DNA from: Spirochaetae bacterium HGW-Spirochaetae-2
GTDB taxonomy: Bacteria > Spirochaetota > Spirochaetia > Sphaerochaetales > Sphaerochaetaceae
Length of the DNA: 64,000 bases
Reading direction: 5' to 3'
Assembly: GCA_002839355.1 (NCBI GenBank)
Contig: PGXW01000016.1
Location: 1 to 64,000, forward strand
Below the pieces are notes generated by a model, which saw only the letters and a program-made list of their open reading frames with translations, did no database searches and was not told the DNA's origin. Position 1 is the first letter of the stretch. Each line of letters starts with the position of its first letter. This document shows, one piece after another, positions 43,394 to 52,376 of this stretch. The translations under genes and the position numbers were made by a program.

Positions 43394-43463
43394 CTTTTAT
43401 ATCTAAAGCACCCCACGTACTCGTCCTTGCATTCTCAGCCAATTGGGGTATCATGGAAGTGAT

Positions 43464-45845
43464 ATGCAACAGCAAGGAGCCGACAAGTACATGCAGGAGA
43501 CAAAACGGTGCATCGGTGTGTTCACTGCCTCGTTGGACGATGGATACCAATCGACAATTTGGCATGCGATAGAACAATCCGCCCGGGAACATGGATTCGG
43601 ATCGATATCTTTCCTGGGTTCGCGCTTGGGTTCACCCATTGCATCGGAGGCTTCGTCAAACCTGGCATACCATTTGGCGAATGTCGGGAATATCGACGGA
43701 TTGATCATTATCGCCTCCTCATTGGCCACGTTCTTCACTTCGGTGGACCTGAAGGAATTCTTCGCACCTTGGGCCGATTTGCCCCGGGTCTCGATCGGTA
43801 TGCGGATTCCCGGAATGTCCGATGTCGTCGTCGAGGGAACCAATGGCATTTCCGGTTTGATGGAACACCTTATCGACGAACATGGAAGGAGACACTTCGC
43901 CTTGGTTTGCGGACCTGGCAGTCACGACGAGGCGATCAGCAGATTGGAAGCCTGTAGGGAAATCTTGAAGCGGCGGGAGATTCCCTTGGACGAACGGATG
44001 GTGATACCAGGTTCCTTCACCCAAGAGTCCGGTACCCACGCGGTTCGCTCACTATGTGCATCGAACATTCCCTTCGATGCACTTGTTTGCCTGAACGACC
44101 GTATGGCCCAGGGAGCCTTGGAGGAATTGTCGAAGCGGGGTATCCGGGTTCCGGACGATGTCTCGGTGATTGGATTCGATGGAATAGAATCATCCAGGTA
44201 TTCTCTGCCTCCGCTCACCACAGTCGTCCAACCGATGCATGAATTGGGTGTAGCCGCTGTGGATATGCTGGAACGGTTGATGCGAGGCGGGAGTGAGGAA
44301 CATATCACCCTTTCCTGTTCTCCGCTCGTCAGGGAATCCTGCGGATGTGGACCGAGGTTCAACTATACGCCGAATTTCCACGAGATTCCCCGCTACGCCA
44401 GCAGCTCGGAACACCAGGCGATGTTCGATCTCATGATTCTCATACGCAAGGGCGACTACAACGGACTGATCAAGCGTCTCAATCGGGCAATCGACACGAC
44501 AGGGACCGAAAATGGTGCGGTCGACCGTTGGAACGAATACCTGTCAATCGTGGAACACCATTGTGAGAACACTCCTTTGGCTGGAGACATGTCGCTTTCG
44601 ACCCTCATGGGTGCCGCCCGCGTGTTTACCAACGAGAAGATCGGACGCTACCAGGCGGCGAAACGGATAGCCGCCGAAACCTCGTTCGAGACGTTGCGCC
44701 AAGTAAGTGCGATGTTGGCCGGAGCTTTCGAACTTGCCGATATGTTTTCCAACCTGAAGAAGGGATTGCAACTATTCGGCCTCGACCGCGGATATCTGGT
44801 TGTCTTCAATAGGAAAAAGGGAAAGGCACGGCTGTTGATGAGTGTCGAGGATGGTCGGCAGTCCACCTCGTCTTTTTCGCAGGAGTTCGATTATGCACAA
44901 CTGTTGCCCTCCCAGATCGGACCTGTCTGGAGACAAGGACAATGGATACTCATGCCGTTGGTATACAACGACGAACCCTTGGGATATCTGATCGTTCCCA
45001 TCGGAATCGTTTTGCCGGCACTCTACGATGTTTTGCAGGAACAGATTTCAAGCAACTTGAAGGGGACGTTGCTGCTTGAGCAGATCAGATCCCATGAGCG
45101 GACGTTGGCGGAGCAGGTGGAATTGCGGACGAAGGACCTGATCCGTACGAACCGCGAATTGTCCAGTGAGATCAAACGCCGCACGGAACTCGAACATGAG
45201 GTCATGGAGATCTCCAGCAAGACCATGGAACGGATCGGACAGGACTTGCATGACGACCTCTGCCAACATCTGTTGGGGATATCGCTCCTCGCATCTTCGG
45301 TAAAGAAAACCGTGGTTGACCATCATCAGGTACAGCCGGAAACCCTGGAGCGCATCAGTTCACTCCTCACCGAATCCATTGGCAAGATCAAGACCATTTC
45401 CCGGGGCTTGTTGCCGTTGGAGATGGATTCGCATACATTCGCGCAGCGCTTGGAGGCCTTGGTCGGAGATGCGAAACGGTATGCGCATGTGGATATATCG
45501 GTCCAGGTTGACCCTGTGTTCGAAATAGCCGATGCCGATAGGGCCTTGCATATATTCAGGATCATACAGGAAGCGCTGACAAACGCGATCCGCCATTCCC
45601 ATGCGCAGCATATCGTGATTGCATTGCAGACGACGATGGAATCGGACGGGACTATCCAACGGATCGCCTCCATCGCGGACGATGGGGTCGGATTGCCCGA
45701 ACAGATGCACAAGAGAGGCTTGGGTTTGCGTATCATGCGCAACAGGGCGAGTATGGCAAAGGCCGAATTGAGTATCGATTCCTCCTCTGGAGGAACGGTG
45801 GTTCGAATACGGGTTCCAGGGAGTAACGATGAGAAATCAAATTGA
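43464..45845 (+). CDS. Cytoplasmic sensor histidine kinase with LacI-type (PBP1) ligand-binding domain
   Basis: About 793 residues. Residues roughly 10-290 are a periplasmic-binding-protein-like domain of the LacI/GalR type (RRHFALVCGP, CLNDRMAQGALEELSKRGIR, VIGFDG), ending in the RESCGCGPR motif. A GAF-like region (about 390-530) and a coiled coil (about 540-585) follow. The NarL-partner type kinase core has ERIGQDLHDDLCQHLL with phospho-His596, N-box EALTNAIRHSHA, DDGVGL and GLGLRIMRNRA. There is no signal peptide, membrane helix or DNA-binding domain, so it senses a cytoplasmic ligand. Start 43464 or 43491 is unresolved. The regulator gene overlaps by 17 bp. Confidence 0.82.
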   Translation: MQQQGADKYMQETKRCIGVFTASLDDGYQSTIWHAIEQSAREHGFGSISFLGSRLGSPIASEASSNLAYHLANVGNIDGLIIIASSLATFFTSVDLKEFFAPWADLPRVSIGMRIPGMSDVVVEGTNGISGLMEHLIDEHGRRHFALVCGPGSHDEAISRLEACREILKRREIPLDERMVIPGSFTQESGTHAVRSLCASNIPFDALVCLNDRMAQGALEELSKRGIRVPDDVSVIGFDGIESSRYSLPPLTTVVQPMHELGVAAVDMLERLMRGGSEEHITLSCSPLVRESCGCGPRFNYTPNFHEIPRYASSSEHQAMFDLMILIRKGDYNGLIKRLNRAIDTTGTENGAVDRWNEYLSIVEHHCENTPLAGDMSLSTLMGAARVFTNEKIGRYQAAKRIAAETSFETLRQVSAMLAGAFELADMFSNLKKGLQLFGLDRGYLVVFNRKKGKARLLMSVEDGRQSTSSFSQEFDYAQLLPSQIGPVWRQGQWILMPLVYNDEPLGYLIVPIGIVLPALYDVLQEQISSNLKGTLLLEQIRSHERTLAEQVELRTKDLIRTNRELSSEIKRRTELEHEVMEISSKTMERIGQDLHDDLCQHLLGISLLASSVKKTVVDHHQVQPETLERISSLLTESIGKIKTISRGLLPLEMDSHTFAQRLEALVGDAKRYAHVDISVQVDPVFEIADADRALHIFRIIQEALTNAIRHSHAQHIVIALQTTMESDGTIQRIASIADDGVGLPEQMHKRGLGLRIMRNRASMAKAELSIDSSSGGTVVRIRVPGSNDEKSN

Positions 45846-46491
45846 ATTCGTGGTTGTCGATGACCATCCGTTGTTCCGCCAAGGTCTGGTGAGTGTCATA
45901 GGAAACAATGATCGCTATACGGTGATCGGTGAGGCCAGGACGATTTCCGAAGCGCTTGGGATTATCGGGGCACATCCGCCCCATGTCCTTCTGGTCGATA
46001 TCGCACTGCAACAGGAAAATGGGCTTGAACTGGTCAAGCAAGTGAAGGTCCTGCATCCCAAGATCCTTCAGATTGTCGTTTCCATGTACGATGAGATCAT
46101 CTACGCTTCAAGTGCCCTGAAATCCGGTGCACGCGGGTATGTCATGAAGCAAGAGGCTGCCGAGACCCTATTGGAGGCGATCGATACGGTCTTGAAGGGA
46201 AAGATCTACCTTTCCGCAACCATGCACGAACGGATGTTGGATTCCATGTTCACCCAAGACTCGAATGCGATGGAAGTCGACCCCATCGTTCAGTTGAGCG
46301 TTCGTGAATTGGAGGTTTTGCGGTTGATCGGCCAAGGATTCGGCATCTCGGAAATTGGGGAAACCCTGAACCTCTCGGTAAAGACAGTCAATGTGTACCG
46401 CGACAATATTCGCCATAAACTCTCCATTGCCGATGCCGGCGAATTGCGAAAATTCGCGATCAAGTGGGCGAGGGGCAACGAATCGTACTAG
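45829..46491 (+). CDS. NarL/FixJ-family response regulator
   Basis: A protein of 220 residues. The receiver has the acidic pair DDH (11-13), phospho-Asp57 in LLVDIAL, and KSGARGYVMK with the conserved Lys. The C-terminal LuxR-type helix-turn-helix is LSVRELEVLRLIGQGFGISE with LSVKTVNVYRDNI. It is the cognate partner of the overlapping PBP1-kinase. The sugar transporter and glycosidase genes begin 172 bp downstream and are the probable targets. Confidence 0.88.
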   Translation: MRNQIEFVVVDDHPLFRQGLVSVIGNNDRYTVIGEARTISEALGIIGAHPPHVLLVDIALQQENGLELVKQVKVLHPKILQIVVSMYDEIIYASSALKSGARGYVMKQEAAETLLEAIDTVLKGKIYLSATMHERMLDSMFTQDSNAMEVDPIVQLSVRELEVLRLIGQGFGISEIGETLNLSVKTVNVYRDNIRHKLSIADAGELRKFAIKWARGNESY

Positions 46492-46508
46492 GACAAACAT
46501 CCTAGTAC
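46485..46508. promoter_or_regulatory. Perfect 9-bp inverted repeat at the end of the response-regulator gene
   Basis: GTACTAGGA (46485-46493), CAAACA, TCCTAGTAC (46500-46508). It overlaps the regulator stop codon and lies about 160 bases ahead of the sugar-binding-protein start. There is no U-run, so a simple terminator is unlikely; an operator for the adjacent regulator or an mRNA-processing hairpin are both possible. Confidence 0.45.
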
Positions 46509-46663
46509 AAGTCAAGACAAATGCCCAATGGCGTCCTGCTTGGATCGATTGTAGCATTCGGTTGTAGGGAGAATCATAGACCATTGCTCCCTGGATACAC
46601 TGGTTCTTGCGCTATCCGATGAATCGATACCCGCAAGACGTGCGCATGTAAGGAGGAGTTGAA

Positions 46664-48004
46664 ATGAAACGGAAACTGGGTCTCATGGTTTGTGTTCTGC
46701 TGATCTTGAGTATGGGCTTGCCCGTATTCGCGGCAGGAAAACAAGAGAGTAGTCCGAAAGTGATCAACGTGTGGAGCTTCACTGACGAAGTACCGAAGAT
46801 GTTGGAGAAATACAAGGAGTTGCATCCTGATTTCGATTATCAAATCAAATCCACCATAATCGCTACGACCGATGGTGCCTACCAGCCCGCACTCGACCAG
46901 GCCCTGGTCAGCGGAGGAGCCGATGCACCGGATATCTACTGTGCGGAGAGTGCATTCGTCCTCAAGTATACACAAGGCGATGCGGCACAATTCGCGGCAC
47001 CTTACAAGAGTCTCGGCATTTCGGTCGATTCGCTCTTGAAAAAAGCCGACATTGCGCAATATACCGTCGATATCGGCACGAACAAAAGCGGGGAACTGGT
47101 CGGTCTCGGTTATCAGGCGACCGGGGGTGCTTTGATCTACCGCCGGTCGATAGCCAAAGCCGTGTGGGGAACCGACGATCCTGCCGTGATCAAGACCAAG
47201 GTCGGTCCGGGTTGGGAGAAGTTCTTTCAAGCCGCAGCCGAGTTGAAGGCGAAGGGATATGGTATTCTTTCAGGTGACGGGGACATTTGGCATGCGATCG
47301 AAGGAGCCTCGGAGAAGGGCTGGATCGTTGACGGCAAGCTGTATTTGGATCCCGATCGGGAAGCTTTCCTGGATATGGCCAAGATGTTGAGGGACAAGGG
47401 GTACCATAACGACACCCGTGACTGGACCGACGCATGGTTCGCGGACATGAAGGATGCGGGAGCCAAGCCCATATTCGGATTCTTTGGTCCCGCATGGTTG
47501 ATCAACTATGTCATGGCCGGCAACAGCGGCGGCAGTGCTCCTGGAGAAGGTACCTTCGGGGACTGGGCGGTCTGTGAACCACCGGTAGGATTCTTCTGGG
47601 GAGGTACCTGGGTACTCGCCAACAAGGACAGCAAGGTCAAGGATGTCGTGGGCGATATCATCGAGTGGATTACCCTCGACAGTTCTGAAACCGGACTCCA
47701 ATACTACTGGGCGAACGGAACTCTCAATGGACCTGGTGGAACCAAGGATACCGTTGCTTCCGGAACAGTCATGGAAAAATCCGACGGTTCGCTCGCCTTC
47801 TTGGGTGGACAGGACATGTTCGACGTATTCGTTCCCGCCGGACAATTCGCTACCGGGCGCAACAAGCACCAGTATGACGAAACCATAAACATCTACTGGC
47901 GCGACCAGGTGCGTGAATATGCACAGGGCAACAAGACCCGTGCGGCGGCAATCGCCGAGTTCAAGCAGCAGGTCAAGGACAATCTCGCCATCGAAGCACA
48001 TTAA
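46664..48004 (+). CDS. Sugar ABC transporter, solute-binding protein (SBP_bac_1)
   Basis: A protein of 446 residues behind TAAGGAGGAG. Signal peptide MKRKLGLMVCVLLILSMGLPV then FAAGKQESS, without a lipobox. The mature protein has INVWSFTDEVPKMLEKYKE, SGGADAPDIYCAES, and the long TWVLANKDSKVKDVVGDIIE region of cluster D oligosaccharide-binding proteins. Followed by two MalF/MalG-type permeases and a GH3 enzyme, so the ligand is probably a beta-glucoside or xyloside. No ATPase gene is present; a shared MsiK/MalK-type ATPase elsewhere is expected. Confidence 0.86.
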   Translation: MKRKLGLMVCVLLILSMGLPVFAAGKQESSPKVINVWSFTDEVPKMLEKYKELHPDFDYQIKSTIIATTDGAYQPALDQALVSGGADAPDIYCAESAFVLKYTQGDAAQFAAPYKSLGISVDSLLKKADIAQYTVDIGTNKSGELVGLGYQATGGALIYRRSIAKAVWGTDDPAVIKTKVGPGWEKFFQAAAELKAKGYGILSGDGDIWHAIEGASEKGWIVDGKLYLDPDREAFLDMAKMLRDKGYHNDTRDWTDAWFADMKDAGAKPIFGFFGPAWLINYVMAGNSGGSAPGEGTFGDWAVCEPPVGFFWGGTWVLANKDSKVKDVVGDIIEWITLDSSETGLQYYWANGTLNGPGGTKDTVASGTVMEKSDGSLAFLGGQDMFDVFVPAGQFATGRNKHQYDETINIYWRDQVREYAQGNKTRAAAIAEFKQQVKDNLAIEAH

Positions 48005-48062: not shown

Positions 48063-48089
48063 CCTCCCGGTGTCCTGTACAGCGGGAGG
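48063..48089 (+). terminator. Second, weaker stem-loop before the permease gene
   Basis: CCTCCCG (48063-48069) and CGGGAGG (48083-48089) form a 7-bp stem with a 13-base loop. Together with the hairpin at 48025-48054 it makes a tandem structure in a 134-base gap. No U-run follows this one. Confidence 0.4.
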
Positions 48090-48138
48090 CGTCCATACCG
48101 ATCGAAGCACGTCACAAGCAACTGGAGGGGTTATACTT

Positions 48139-49110
48139 ATGCGACGCAAGGGCATCAACTATGCTAAATACGGCTACATATTCTCCATACCGTTTGTAGT
48201 GACTTTTCTGATCTTCTCGCTATACCCGATCCTCTATACGACAGTCATCGGGTTTACCGATCTCAGGGGTCTTGGAAGGACCGATATCAACTTCCTGGAC
48301 AATCCTTTCCAGAATTTCCAGATTATCCTCACCAATGCGACCTTCCAGAAGGCCTTGTCCAATACTGCATTGATCTGGATCATGAACTTTATTCCCCAGA
48401 TGCTGGTGGCCTTCCTGTTGACCGCATGGTTCACGAACCGGCGGTTCAAGGTCCGAGGCCAGGGAGTCTTCAAGGTGCTGATCTACATGCCGAACATCAT
48501 AACCGCCGCCACCATCGCGCTTCTGTTCTATTCTCTGTTCGGATATCCCAAAGGCCCGGTGAACGATGTACTTATGGCATTCGGATTGACCGACGAACCT
48601 ATGAATTTCCATTTGCAGAAGTGGACAGCCCGCACTGTGGTGGCTTTCATCCAGTTCTGGATGTGGTATGGGCATACGATGATCGTCCTGATCGCAGGGG
48701 TGTTGGGGATCAGTCCGACGCTTTTCGAGGCGGCGGAAATCGATGGAGCTTCGGCTCCCCAGATATTTTTTCGCATCACGTTGCCCAGACTGAAGACCAT
48801 TGTCCTCTACACTCTGGTCACCAGCATGATCGGTGGACTGCAGATGTTCGATATCCCCAAGCTGTTTCTCCTGGGCGGTCCGGACAGCGCCACGCTCACC
48901 ACCAGCGTGTTCATCTACAACCAAGCGTTCAGCGGCAGTTATCTCTACAACCGTGCGGCGGCCGCAAGCATGATCATGTTCGTCATCATCTCGATCCTCT
49001 CGGCACTGTTGTTCTTCATCCTTCGTGACAGGGATCCCGGACGCGCACGAAGGCGGGAGCGCGAGTTGCGCAGGATCGCAAGGACCCTCGATGGGGAGGT
49101 GTCGGTATGA
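48139..49110 (+). CDS. Sugar ABC transporter permease (MalF/UgpA-like)
   Basis: A protein of 323 residues; GGAGGGG before the ATG at 48139 fixes the start. Six helices; N-terminal YIFSIPFVVTFLIFSLYPIL is the usual first helix, and EAAEIDGASAPQIFFRITLP is the EAA loop that docks the ATPase. The C-terminus ends in an unusually basic tail (RDRDPGRARRRERELRR). It overlaps the next gene by ATGA. Confidence 0.86.
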   Translation: MRRKGINYAKYGYIFSIPFVVTFLIFSLYPILYTTVIGFTDLRGLGRTDINFLDNPFQNFQIILTNATFQKALSNTALIWIMNFIPQMLVAFLLTAWFTNRRFKVRGQGVFKVLIYMPNIITAATIALLFYSLFGYPKGPVNDVLMAFGLTDEPMNFHLQKWTARTVVAFIQFWMWYGHTMIVLIAGVLGISPTLFEAAEIDGASAPQIFFRITLPRLKTIVLYTLVTSMIGGLQMFDIPKLFLLGGPDSATLTTSVFIYNQAFSGSYLYNRAAAASMIMFVIISILSALLFFILRDRDPGRARRRERELRRIARTLDGEVSV

Positions 49111-49955
49111 AGATGGGCATGCTCGCTTCTCGCAACAGTACGAAGGCAGTCATCTATATCGTGTGCATCTTCCTGGCATTGATAAGCATTTTTCCCTTCT
49201 GGATCATGTTCATGAACGCAACACGCAGCACCTTCGAGATCCAGCAGAATTCCGTGGCGTTCTGGCCTTCGACATTCCTTTCCAGCAATTGGAAGATACT
49301 GGTTGGAAAAAGTTTCAACCCGTTGACTGGATTCATGAATTCCATGCTGGTTTCAACCGGCGCCACGTTGGGGGCGGTCTACTTTTCCTCGCTTACCGCA
49401 TACGCGTTGGTCGCGTATAGCTGGAAACTGCGACAACCCTTCTTCACGTTCATCATGGCTATCCTCATGATACCTGCGCAAGTGTCGAGTATCGGCTTTT
49501 ACCAGTTCATGTACAGTATCCACTGGACAAACAGTCTGTGGCCACTGATATTACCGGCAATAGCGACCCCCGCGATGGTGTTTTTCATGCGCCAATACCT
49601 TATGGCAACCCTGTCGTTGGAAATTGTCGATTCAGCGCGAATCGATGGCGCGGGAGAGTTCTATACATTCAATCGGATCATCCTGCCGATCATGAAACCG
49701 GCGATAGCCACGCAGGCGATCTTTTCCTTTGTATTCAGCTGGAACAACTTGTTCTTGCCTTTGATCCTTCTGACTAACAACAAGAAGTATACGATGCCCA
49801 TCATGGTAAGCCTGTTGAGAGGCGACATCTACAAGACGGAATACGGTTCAGTATATCTGGGGCTTGCCCTTACGGTCCTGCCGTTGTTCGTCATCTACTT
49901 CCTGCTTTCGAAATATATTATTGCCGGGGTTGCGCTGGGTGCGTTGAAGGAGTGA
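49107..49955 (+). CDS. Sugar ABC transporter permease (MalG/UgpE-like)
   Basis: A protein of 282 residues. FPFWIMFMNATRSTFEI is the family N-terminal block, DSARIDGAGEFYTFNRIILP the EAA loop, and KYIIAGVALGALKE the conserved C-terminus. It completes the channel with the preceding permease. The GH3 gene starts 5 bp after its stop, so uptake and hydrolysis are coordinated. Confidence 0.86.
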   Translation: MKMGMLASRNSTKAVIYIVCIFLALISIFPFWIMFMNATRSTFEIQQNSVAFWPSTFLSSNWKILVGKSFNPLTGFMNSMLVSTGATLGAVYFSSLTAYALVAYSWKLRQPFFTFIMAILMIPAQVSSIGFYQFMYSIHWTNSLWPLILPAIATPAMVFFMRQYLMATLSLEIVDSARIDGAGEFYTFNRIILPIMKPAIATQAIFSFVFSWNNLFLPLILLTNNKKYTMPIMVSLLRGDIYKTEYGSVYLGLALTVLPLFVIYFLLSKYIIAGVALGALKE

Positions 49956-49959
49956 TGGT

Positions 49960-52326
49960 ATGCGGACGAATTATGAACGGGCAGTAGGGCTCCTGAAGGA
50001 AATGACCTTGGAAGAGAAGGTCGCCCAACTCTGTGCCGCTTGGCTGGAAATCTCGGAAGATGGCAGCTTCTCGGTAAAAGAAACGGCATTCCGGGCTGAT
50101 CGCCCCGCACATGACCGGGAAATGGTGTTGGGCAATGGCATTGGACAACTCACGCGACCATACGGCACACGTTCCCTTGCTCCCAGAAAGGTGGCACGGG
50201 GAATCAATGAGATCCAGCGGTATTTGACCGGTCGTACCCGTCTCGGTATTCCGGCGATGCTCCACGAGGAATGTCTTGCTGGAGCCATGGTCCAGGATGC
50301 GACGATATTTCCCTGCAGCCTCAACTATGGAGCCACCTGGGACACTTCGCTCATGTATCGGATCTCGCGGGCAATCGGGCGGGAGTTGACTTCACTTGGT
50401 ATCCACGAAGGGTTGGCCCCGGTCCTGGACGTCGCGCGGGATGCCCGCTGGGGACGATTGGAGGAAACGTTCGGTGAAGATCCGTATCTTGTAGGTTCAA
50501 TGGGTATTTCCTATGTCAAAGGTTTGCAGGGCCCCAACAGGTCTCCGATTTCGACGCTCAAGCATTTTGTCGGACACTCTTCGAGCGAAGGTGGAAGAAA
50601 CCATGCTCCCGTCCATATCGGACAGCGCGAATTGTCCAATACGTTTGCCCTGCCTTTCGAGATGGTGGTGAAGGCGGCTGCTCCGGGGGCAGTCATGCCG
50701 GCATACCATGATATTGATGGTGAACCCTGCTCATCCTCCCATTCGCTGATCACAGGATTGCTGAAGCGGACGTGGGGATTCGACGGCTTGGTGGTTGCCG
50801 ATTATGAAGCACCCATGCAACTGTTTGCTGATCACAAGGTAGCTCGCGACGTTTCCGAAGCGGCCGCACTTGCATTGAAGGCCGGGATGGATATGGAACT
50901 CCCCAGCAGTACGACCTTCAAGAAGGGTCTTTTTGAAGCTGTGGGGCGTGGCTTGATAGAAATTGCCGAGGTGGATGCCTCTGTGCTCAAGATCCTGCTG
51001 GAAAAATTCCGGTTGGGTTTGTTCGACCATCCGTTCATTGAAATCGATGCGATTGAACTCGGTTCACCCGCGAACCATGACCTGGCTGTCGAGGTAGCGG
51101 AGAAATCGATGGTGCTCCTGAAGAATTCCGGCGTGCTTCCATTGCCACAGGTAGGTTCGATCGCCTTGATAGGTCCTTTGGCGGACCACCCCTATGCCAT
51201 GCTCAGCGGGTATTCCGCTCCGGTACATCTGCAAGGTTCGAGCAATCCGGAGGACACGGTACCCGCACGGGCCTTGTCGATCAGGAAGGCGTTGGAAACG
51301 GTCCGGGGGAAAGCGACCATTATGTATGAACCGGGTTGTAAGATCTACGACTATTCGTTCAAGGACGCCGTGTATTTTCCTGGCGATGTAAGCGAGGACG
51401 AGCAGAATTCGCTCCAGTCGCCCAGTGAGGACACCAGTAATATCGCTTCCGCCGTAGCGTTGGCCAAAGAGGCGGATGTGGTTGTGGTTGTGGTTGTGGT
51501 TGGGGATCTTGTCGGGTTGTTCCAACATGGAACGGTCGGAGAAGGCTCCGACGTCTCCTCGCTTCGGTTGCCCGGCGTGCAACAACAATTGCTCGATGCG
51601 GTCTTGGAAACAGGGAAACCGGTTGTCGTTGTCTTGGTCAGCGGGCGACCGTACGAACTGGGAAAGGCTTTGGGTAGCGCTGATGCTATCTTGGCGACAT
51701 GGTTGCCTGGAGAGGGTGGTGGTGAAGCCACCGCGCGGATCCTATTCGGACTAGCGGTGCCGGGTGGGAAGACACCGCTCTCGTTTCCCAAGACTGCCGG
51801 GGCTATGCCACATTTCTACAATTACTCCTATAAGGCTCCTGGATTGCCGAAACAAAGACAATTCGATCCGGTGTTTCCCTTCGGTTTTGGGTTGAGCTAT
51901 ACCCGATTCTCGTACGGGGAGTGTTCTGTTGATGCCCTTACAGTGCCGAACGACGGTGTTGTGCGGATATCCGCCGTTATCGGGAATATTGGCAATTTCA
52001 CCGGTGATGAAGTTGTCCAACTCTACGTACACGACTGCCAGGCCTCGATTGTTCGGCCAGTCAAGGAGTTGAAGGGGTTCGCCCGTGTTTCTCTCGACCC
52101 GGGAACACGACGTCGGGTTGTATTCGCGTTGCCGGTGGATATGCTCTCGTTCATAGCCGATGGAACTACAAGGATAGTCGAACCGGGCTTCTTCGAGATC
52201 ATGATCGGCCGATCCTCCCGTGATATCGTCTGGTCACAAGAAGTGGAGGTGCTCGGTCCTAAACGGGTGCTTCCACGCGATTGGAGTTTCCAGACGGGTG
52301 TGGCAATCGAAGAGATTGTCGGGTGA
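49960..52326 (+). CDS. Glycoside hydrolase family 3 beta-glycosidase
   Basis: A protein of 788 residues, cytoplasmic (no signal peptide). The (beta/alpha)8 domain has MLHEECLAG, LAPVLDVARDARWGRLEETF and GEDPYLVG; TLKHFVGHSS follows. GLVVADYEA carries the nucleophile Asp281. The second domain has VLLKNSGVLPLP, and a fibronectin III-like domain ends the protein (YTRFSYGECSVDALT onward). The likely role is release of glucose or xylose from imported beta-glycosides. A (GTGGTT)4 repeat makes eight consecutive valines at 507-514. ATGs other than 49960 are not needed. Confidence 0.88.
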   Translation: MRTNYERAVGLLKEMTLEEKVAQLCAAWLEISEDGSFSVKETAFRADRPAHDREMVLGNGIGQLTRPYGTRSLAPRKVARGINEIQRYLTGRTRLGIPAMLHEECLAGAMVQDATIFPCSLNYGATWDTSLMYRISRAIGRELTSLGIHEGLAPVLDVARDARWGRLEETFGEDPYLVGSMGISYVKGLQGPNRSPISTLKHFVGHSSSEGGRNHAPVHIGQRELSNTFALPFEMVVKAAAPGAVMPAYHDIDGEPCSSSHSLITGLLKRTWGFDGLVVADYEAPMQLFADHKVARDVSEAAALALKAGMDMELPSSTTFKKGLFEAVGRGLIEIAEVDASVLKILLEKFRLGLFDHPFIEIDAIELGSPANHDLAVEVAEKSMVLLKNSGVLPLPQVGSIALIGPLADHPYAMLSGYSAPVHLQGSSNPEDTVPARALSIRKALETVRGKATIMYEPGCKIYDYSFKDAVYFPGDVSEDEQNSLQSPSEDTSNIASAVALAKEADVVVVVVVVGDLVGLFQHGTVGEGSDVSSLRLPGVQQQLLDAVLETGKPVVVVLVSGRPYELGKALGSADAILATWLPGEGGGEATARILFGLAVPGGKTPLSFPKTAGAMPHFYNYSYKAPGLPKQRQFDPVFPFGFGLSYTRFSYGECSVDALTVPNDGVVRISAVIGNIGNFTGDEVVQLYVHDCQASIVRPVKELKGFARVSLDPGTRRRVVFALPVDMLSFIADGTTRIVEPGFFEIMIGRSSRDIVWSQEVEVLGPKRVLPRDWSFQTGVAIEEIVG
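51478..51501 (+). repeat. In-frame hexanucleotide repeat (GTGGTT)4 in the GH3 gene
   Basis: Four exact copies of GTGGTT encode Val507-Val514 in a buried strand before GDLVGLFQHGTVGEG. GH3 relatives usually have about five or six hydrophobic residues at this strand. Slipped-strand gain or loss of one unit would change two valines without shifting the frame. Confidence 0.7.
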
Positions 52327-52347: not shown

Positions 52348-52376
52348 TTGACATATCTTGCTGTAAATTATATAGT
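52348..52376 (+). promoter_or_regulatory. Sigma-70 promoter of the peroxidase-ohrR operon
   Basis: TTGACA (52348-52353) and TATAGT (52371-52376) are separated by 17 bases, a near-consensus promoter. The transcript would start near 52383, giving a 31-base leader before the ATG at 52414. The -10 and start point lie inside the palindrome at 52364-52391. Confidence 0.7.

Follow-up and report, generated by a model that had tools for sequence, protein, structure and literature searches.

A predicted cytoplasmic two-component system with a LacI-type ligand-binding domain probably controls the adjacent sugar ABC transporter/GH3 operon in a spirochaete

The window (the whole 64,000-nucleotide stretch of DNA that was analysed) belongs to the assembly of a 3.6 Mb spirochaete genome, whose nearest named relatives are the MAG Spirochaetae bacterium HGW-Spirochaetae-4 (93% identity) and a Spirochaetales MAG (68%). 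It carries genes for a sensor histidine kinase and a response regulator, followed by those of a sugar ABC transporter and a glycoside hydrolase:

43464..45845, + strand: sensor histidine kinase gene (probable start 43491), encoding a LacI-type ligand-binding domain, SCGC motif, GAF-like segment, coiled coil, HisKA_3 and HATPase_c
Residues 15-299 of the sensor: LacI-type ligand-binding domain
Residues 292-295 of the sensor: SCGC motif, at the C-terminal edge of the LacI-type domain
About residues 424-531 of the sensor: GAF-like segment (tentative)
About residues 535-590 of the sensor: coiled coil
45829..46491, + strand: NarL/LuxR-type response regulator with intact phospho-Asp D57 and GerE HTH; 17-nt overlap with the kinase gene (45829-45845)
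46489..46504, no strand assigned: putative operator O1, TAGGACAAACATCCTA (consensus TAGGACAWWTGTCCTA), overlapping the regulator stop codon
46513..46528, no strand assigned: putative second operator O2, degenerate, CAAGACAAATGCCCAA, centred 24 bp after O1; conserved as TCaaGaCAaa..CC
About 46529, + strand: weak -35 region TGGCGT, abutting O2
46551..46556, + strand: putative -10 element TAGCAT of the predicted promoter, at a conserved distance from O1
46664..48004, + strand: solute-binding protein (SBP) of a sugar ABC transporter, with a signal-peptide-like N terminus; remote relative of the cellobiose-binding protein 8bfy
48070..49110, + strand: ABC permease (BPD_transp_1), UgpA/MalF type
49107..49955, + strand: ABC permease, UgpE/GlcU type
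49960..52326, + strand: GH3 glycoside hydrolase with no apparent signal peptide; closest solved relatives are the beta-xylosidases 7zb3 and 8c7f

The open frame of the sensor spans 43443-45845. The start originally placed at 43464 is possible, but 43491 (M10) appears likelier, given a Shine-Dalgarno-like GGAG 11 nt upstream and an N terminus shared with some orthologs (L092). In Pfam searches the N-terminal part of the protein matched Peripla_BP_3 (E=1.3e-30) and Peripla_BP_1 (1.4e-13) and the C terminus matched HisKA_3 (8e-8) and HATPase_c (1.4e-12), all four exceeding the curated cut-offs; no Pfam domain was found between the LacI-type part and HisKA_3. A phmmer search of the PDB aligned residues 15-293/299 with ancestral LacI, PurR and RbsR, covering the entire ligand-binding domain. 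The HTH and hinge helix of LacI are absent, with no HTH found by Pfam. A hidden HTH further upstream was also considered and is ruled out by a stop that closes the frame: since the stop-to-stop frame is only 812 aa, there is no room for an HTH before the LacI-type domain. Judged by its domain content, the sensor is not a LacI repressor. Hydropathy analysis revealed no clear membrane helix and no signal peptide (the maximum Kyte-Doolittle value over 19 residues, 1.94, lies within the GAF-like segment), and thus by hydropathy the signal peptide or membrane segments that flank the binding domain in periplasmic-binding-domain kinases are missing here. We infer that the sensor is cytoplasmic.

The region between the two ends of the protein is less clear. 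The original prediction had named a GAF-like region and a coiled coil; the latter stands, at about residues 535-590, but a firm GAF assignment does not. GAF_2 was matched weakly in 4/19 sensor homologs (best E=0.025), the middle segment gave a profile match to the histidine kinase chain 8w26 (E=0.013), and structure models of the GAF-like region were poor (pLDDT about 48), with nothing significant in Foldseek. The weakly supported 'GAF-like' label is the weak point of the architecture.

Residue conservation was read from an alignment of 31 homologs (numbering of the 793-aa form). In the pocket, R160 and D239 are present in 31/31 and N211 in 30/31; these we take to correspond to R197, N246 and D274, the residues with which LacI contacts its sugar. 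The Asn-Asp pair is that of ancestral LacI, whereas PurR has Gly-Asp there. In the kinase core, H596 and D597, the N box and the first Asp and Gly of the G1 box are kept in all 31 homologs and the G2 box is near-universal; H596, N, G1 and G2 are all intact in the sensor of the window. The predictions of a complete PBP1/LacI ligand-binding domain and of a NarL-partner kinase core with intact active-site His and ATP boxes, joined without a membrane segment or DNA-binding domain, are thus borne out by these searches. As far as its sequence tells, the two-component sensor architecture is real, conserved and catalytically complete.

Adjoining the kinase gene, and overlapping it as had been predicted, is the gene of a NarL-type regulator with a receiver Asp and a GerE HTH (Pfam: Response_reg 1e-21, GerE 7.5e-13). 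D57, S85 and K107 of the regulator occur in 29/29 homologs and the acid pair is intact in essentially all 29. The kinase itself has no receiver or Hpt domain in Pfam. Because there is neither an Hpt nor a second receiver, the route from HisKA_3 to the single receiver is, by domain content, a one-step phosphotransfer, and the term 'phosphorelay', used in the original prediction, has to be dropped.

The design is not a one-off. A sensor ortholog is present in 25/139 genomes of the same family (55-93% identity, near-full-length or cut by contig ends; the 25 genomes span three genera, g1, g6 and g9, the window's own included), and the class has more distant members (36-40%) outside this family. 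The domain order is the same in two further groups, a second at about 31-34% and a third at 25-27%, the third mostly without an adjacent transporter. The predicted proximity to a sugar ABC/GH3 operon proved general: in 23/23 first-group neighbourhoods read (22 clustered orthologs, the window included, and L074), ABC transporter genes and GH3 lie next to the kinase-regulator pair, most commonly arranged as kinase, regulator, SBP, permease, permease, GH3. The automatic gene list lacks one transporter gene in L093, L094, L095, L098 and L080; in the four of these without a listed SBP an antisense frame had been picked instead, and the intergenic sequence shows the same SBP start. The genes flanking the kinase-to-GH3 block differ between genera, and the linkage extends to members at 36-40% identity, including loci in which the pair follows the operon (L104, L073). 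This conserved synteny makes control of the operon the most economical function of the pair. L100 (G281) combines ABC genes 77-79% identical to those of the window with a second-group kinase (31%) and a GH3 of just 32% identity, which looks like an exchange of sensor and enzyme around a single transporter.

Among solved structures the GH3 enzyme is closest to beta-xylosidases, matching 7zb3 and 8c7f over its full length with 645 and 642 bits, respectively. It falls under the curated cut-off of the NCBIfam beta-xylosidase/arabinosidase model (751.7 versus 1050 bits), and the identity of the sugar is therefore uncertain. Since the enzyme has no signal peptide, hydrolysis is probably cytoplasmic. 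On the grounds that GH3 is nearest to beta-xylosidases and that the SBP is remotely related to a cellobiose-binding protein we favour, without insisting on it, a beta-xyloside or its product as the plausible signal. Directly 3' of GH3, on the + strand at 52348-52376, lies a strong sigma-70-like promoter (TTGACA-17-TATAGT, 11/12), perhaps the start of a separate unit.

Both the pocket residues and the genomic context suggest that the LacI-type domain binds a sugar. CytR and PurR bind nucleosides or purines. They are also the nearest NCBIfam models for the ligand domain, far below their cut-offs, and PurR ranks second in the PDB search, so that the ligand might instead be a nucleoside, a purine or a phosphorylated intermediate that reports the metabolic state rather than the substrate sugar. 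We find this rather improbable, because the Asn-Asp pair is of the LacI type and differs from that position in PurR, and because the operon partner is always the sugar ABC/GH3 set.

The intergenic stretch between the regulator and SBP genes contains the palindrome TAGGACAWWTGTCCTA. All 19 close orthologs (19/19, window included) have this O1 palindrome at the same place with a score of 13/15 or better, followed by a degenerate site centred 24 bp on, a weak -35 region and, at a near-constant distance, a TAGNNT-like -10 element. The predicted promoter at 46551 was missed by a scan with the sigma-70 consensus; an activator-dependent promoter would be expected to escape such a scan, although this is not proof of one. 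The only mismatch-free match to the pattern in the 3.6 Mb genome is O1 itself; weaker matches genome-wide were no commoner than those of a reversed-pattern control, giving no sign of a wider regulon, and no O1-type site that could serve autoregulation was found near 43464, before the kinase gene. In L104 and L073, where the pair lies downstream of the operon, a variant, TAGGTCAAATCACCTA, is found 95-115 bp upstream of the SBP gene, which indicates that the palindrome goes with the operon and not with the kinase-regulator pair.

Distant members have site variants of the form TAGG-N8-CCTA: L103 has TAGGTAATTATACCTA at the regulator's end, L075 has two sites of this type, and L100 and L101 have related sites after the regulator, while none was found in L074, L076 and L102. 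As shuffling gives about 0.4 matches to the relaxed pattern per 19 kb, single distant sites are weak on their own and it is their placement that counts; all seven, those of L104 and L073 included, are located either shortly downstream of the regulator or ahead of the SBP gene. The regulator is predicted to bind the O1 palindrome. The loci L089-L098, L080 and L081 of genus g9 have a second conserved palindrome, GTACARGCGTTGTAC, between the -10 element and the SBP gene, which the window lacks and which is possibly a site for another regulator.

Taken together, the architecture, the conservation of residues, the conserved synteny and the conserved palindrome before the operon strongly support the view that a cytoplasmic sensor with a LacI-type pocket probably controls the adjacent sugar ABC/GH3 operon. 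We consider it likely that the pair is a local cytoplasmic sugar-responsive two-component system whose phosphorylated regulator activates SBP-permease-permease-GH3. The sugar (plausibly a xylo-oligosaccharide, another beta-xyloside or xylose) would enter via the ABC transporter or be released by the intracellular GH3, and would bind the LacI-type domain in the cytoplasm. Domain closure would then be passed through the GAF-like segment and the coiled coil to the HisKA_3 dimer and change autophosphorylation at H596; the structure models are too poor to show such inter-domain coupling. Phosphate would pass from H596 to D57 of the NarL-type regulator, and the phosphorylated regulator dimer would bind the tandem O1 and O2 sites, against the weak -35 region, and activate transcription of the four genes.

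We infer the sign of the response, activation rather than repression, from the layout of the sites, which lie upstream of and against the -35 region and not over the -10 element or the start, next to a weak -35 that suits an activator. Neither this layout nor residue conservation fixes the sign, and the families involved offer grounds for the reverse: LacI-family domains usually act by derepression, and HisKA_3 kinases are commonly bifunctional. An unliganded kinase could thus keep the regulator phosphorylated and repressing, or the ligand could switch the kinase to a phosphatase, with induction by dephosphorylation in either case, which we consider unlikely.

The LacI-type module is not confined to this kinase. 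In the phylum of a Lachnospiraceae genome the kinase profile also matches LacI-domain proteins without an HTH (L118-L129), for which Pfam finds GGDEF outputs (L118, L119, L121, L122, L128, L129), HD-GYP-type HD outputs (L124-L126) and an intact HisKA-HATPase-receiver-Hpt hybrid kinase (L127). Whatever the output, these proteins and their spirochaete homologs have SCGC at the end of the LacI-type domain, a possible metal, disulfide or redox site. Among 76 LacI-domain proteins, SCxC occurs in 54/56 with a long C-terminal part and in 2/20 with a short one (mostly repressors), counts that are not independent since many of the proteins are orthologs. A motif nearly universal in the long signalling forms and rare in the short ones, with a cysteine pair at a domain junction that could bind metal or sense redox, raises the question of whether the LacI-type part is a vestigial scaffold, with the true input coming from the GAF-like segment or from the SCGC cysteines, through a change in redox state or bound metal. 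We hold this to be very unlikely: the equivalents of R197, N246 and D274 are kept almost without exception, which a dead pocket would not need, and the joining of the module to many outputs suits a sensor.

In Spirochaetes the LacI module also drives an AraC output. Regulators of about 1,050-1,090 aa with a LacI-type domain and a C-terminal AraC HTH are encoded at L044:7074-10352 (G000:C55:27073-30351), L077:5539-8676 and L078:7708-10875, and many genomes of the family have matches whose frames are of this size. In hhalign the middle part of these regulators matches the HisKA region of L127 (probability 83%, E=8e-6), with the phospho-His replaced (FFASMGASLKEPL versus FLANISHEIRTPL), and L078 keeps a weak HisKA match; by sequence they look like decayed hybrid kinases.

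The system in the window is thus one output variant of an HTH-less LacI module, and the idea that a one-component repressor sensor was turned into a kinase finds no support here, the nearest relatives of the module being other HTH-less signalling proteins. More tentatively, and with a little less than even confidence, we suggest that a little-described cytoplasmic module (HTH-less LacI domain, SCGC and GAF-like transmitter), swapped across HisKA_3/NarL, hybrid kinase, GGDEF, HD-GYP and AraC outputs, gives glycan-degrading anaerobes a common route for feeding intracellular sugar levels into two-component and c-di-GMP signalling, and in Spirochaetes has also been reduced from a hybrid kinase to a one-component AraC regulator.

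Two-component sensors are usually pictured as sitting in the membrane and sensing the exterior, and LacI-type pockets as belonging to repressors that bind DNA. In the system described here the pocket has been retained and a kinase has taken the place of the output; there is also a probable operator, and one conserved target operon. A full-text literature search, with subscription journals mostly outside its coverage, found no description of a LacI-domain histidine kinase. Being compact, the system lends itself to studies of how closure of a LacI domain can act on a kinase, and it would supply sensor engineering with a ready-made soluble kinase that responds to sugar. Its kinase core and regulator class are those of NarX/NarL, UhpB/UhpA and DegS/DegU (Pfam HisKA_3, GerE), and the NCBIfam matches of kinase and regulator include MctS/MctR, NarQ and UhpB; NarX and UhpB, however, are membrane proteins, whereas this sensor has a cytoplasmic LacI-type input and no membrane segment. 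With the LacI/GalR repressors (LacI, RbsR, PurR, CytR) it has the entire ligand-binding domain and the contact residues in common, but it lacks their HTH and hinge helix, has a kinase output and carries the SCGC motif rare in repressors. E. coli XylR, a LacI-type sugar domain joined to an AraC HTH, likewise re-uses a cytoplasmic LacI-type domain without the LacI HTH; XylR binds DNA itself, while here the signal would go by phosphotransfer to a separate protein. The HTH-less proteins L118-L129 share the LacI module and SCGC, and some of the HD-GYP and hybrid-kinase forms also the GAF-like region, but, unlike the kinase of the window, they end in c-di-GMP enzymes or in a class I hybrid kinase that has a receiver and an Hpt. 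The occurrence of a LacI-type Periplas_BP domain in c-di-GMP proteins is mentioned, in passing, in a review (PMC8846402). Bacteroides HTCS likewise place a glycan-use operon under two-component control; they are described as sensing outside glycans from the membrane and as combining kinase and DNA-binding output in a single chain (PMC10766802; PMC11253607).
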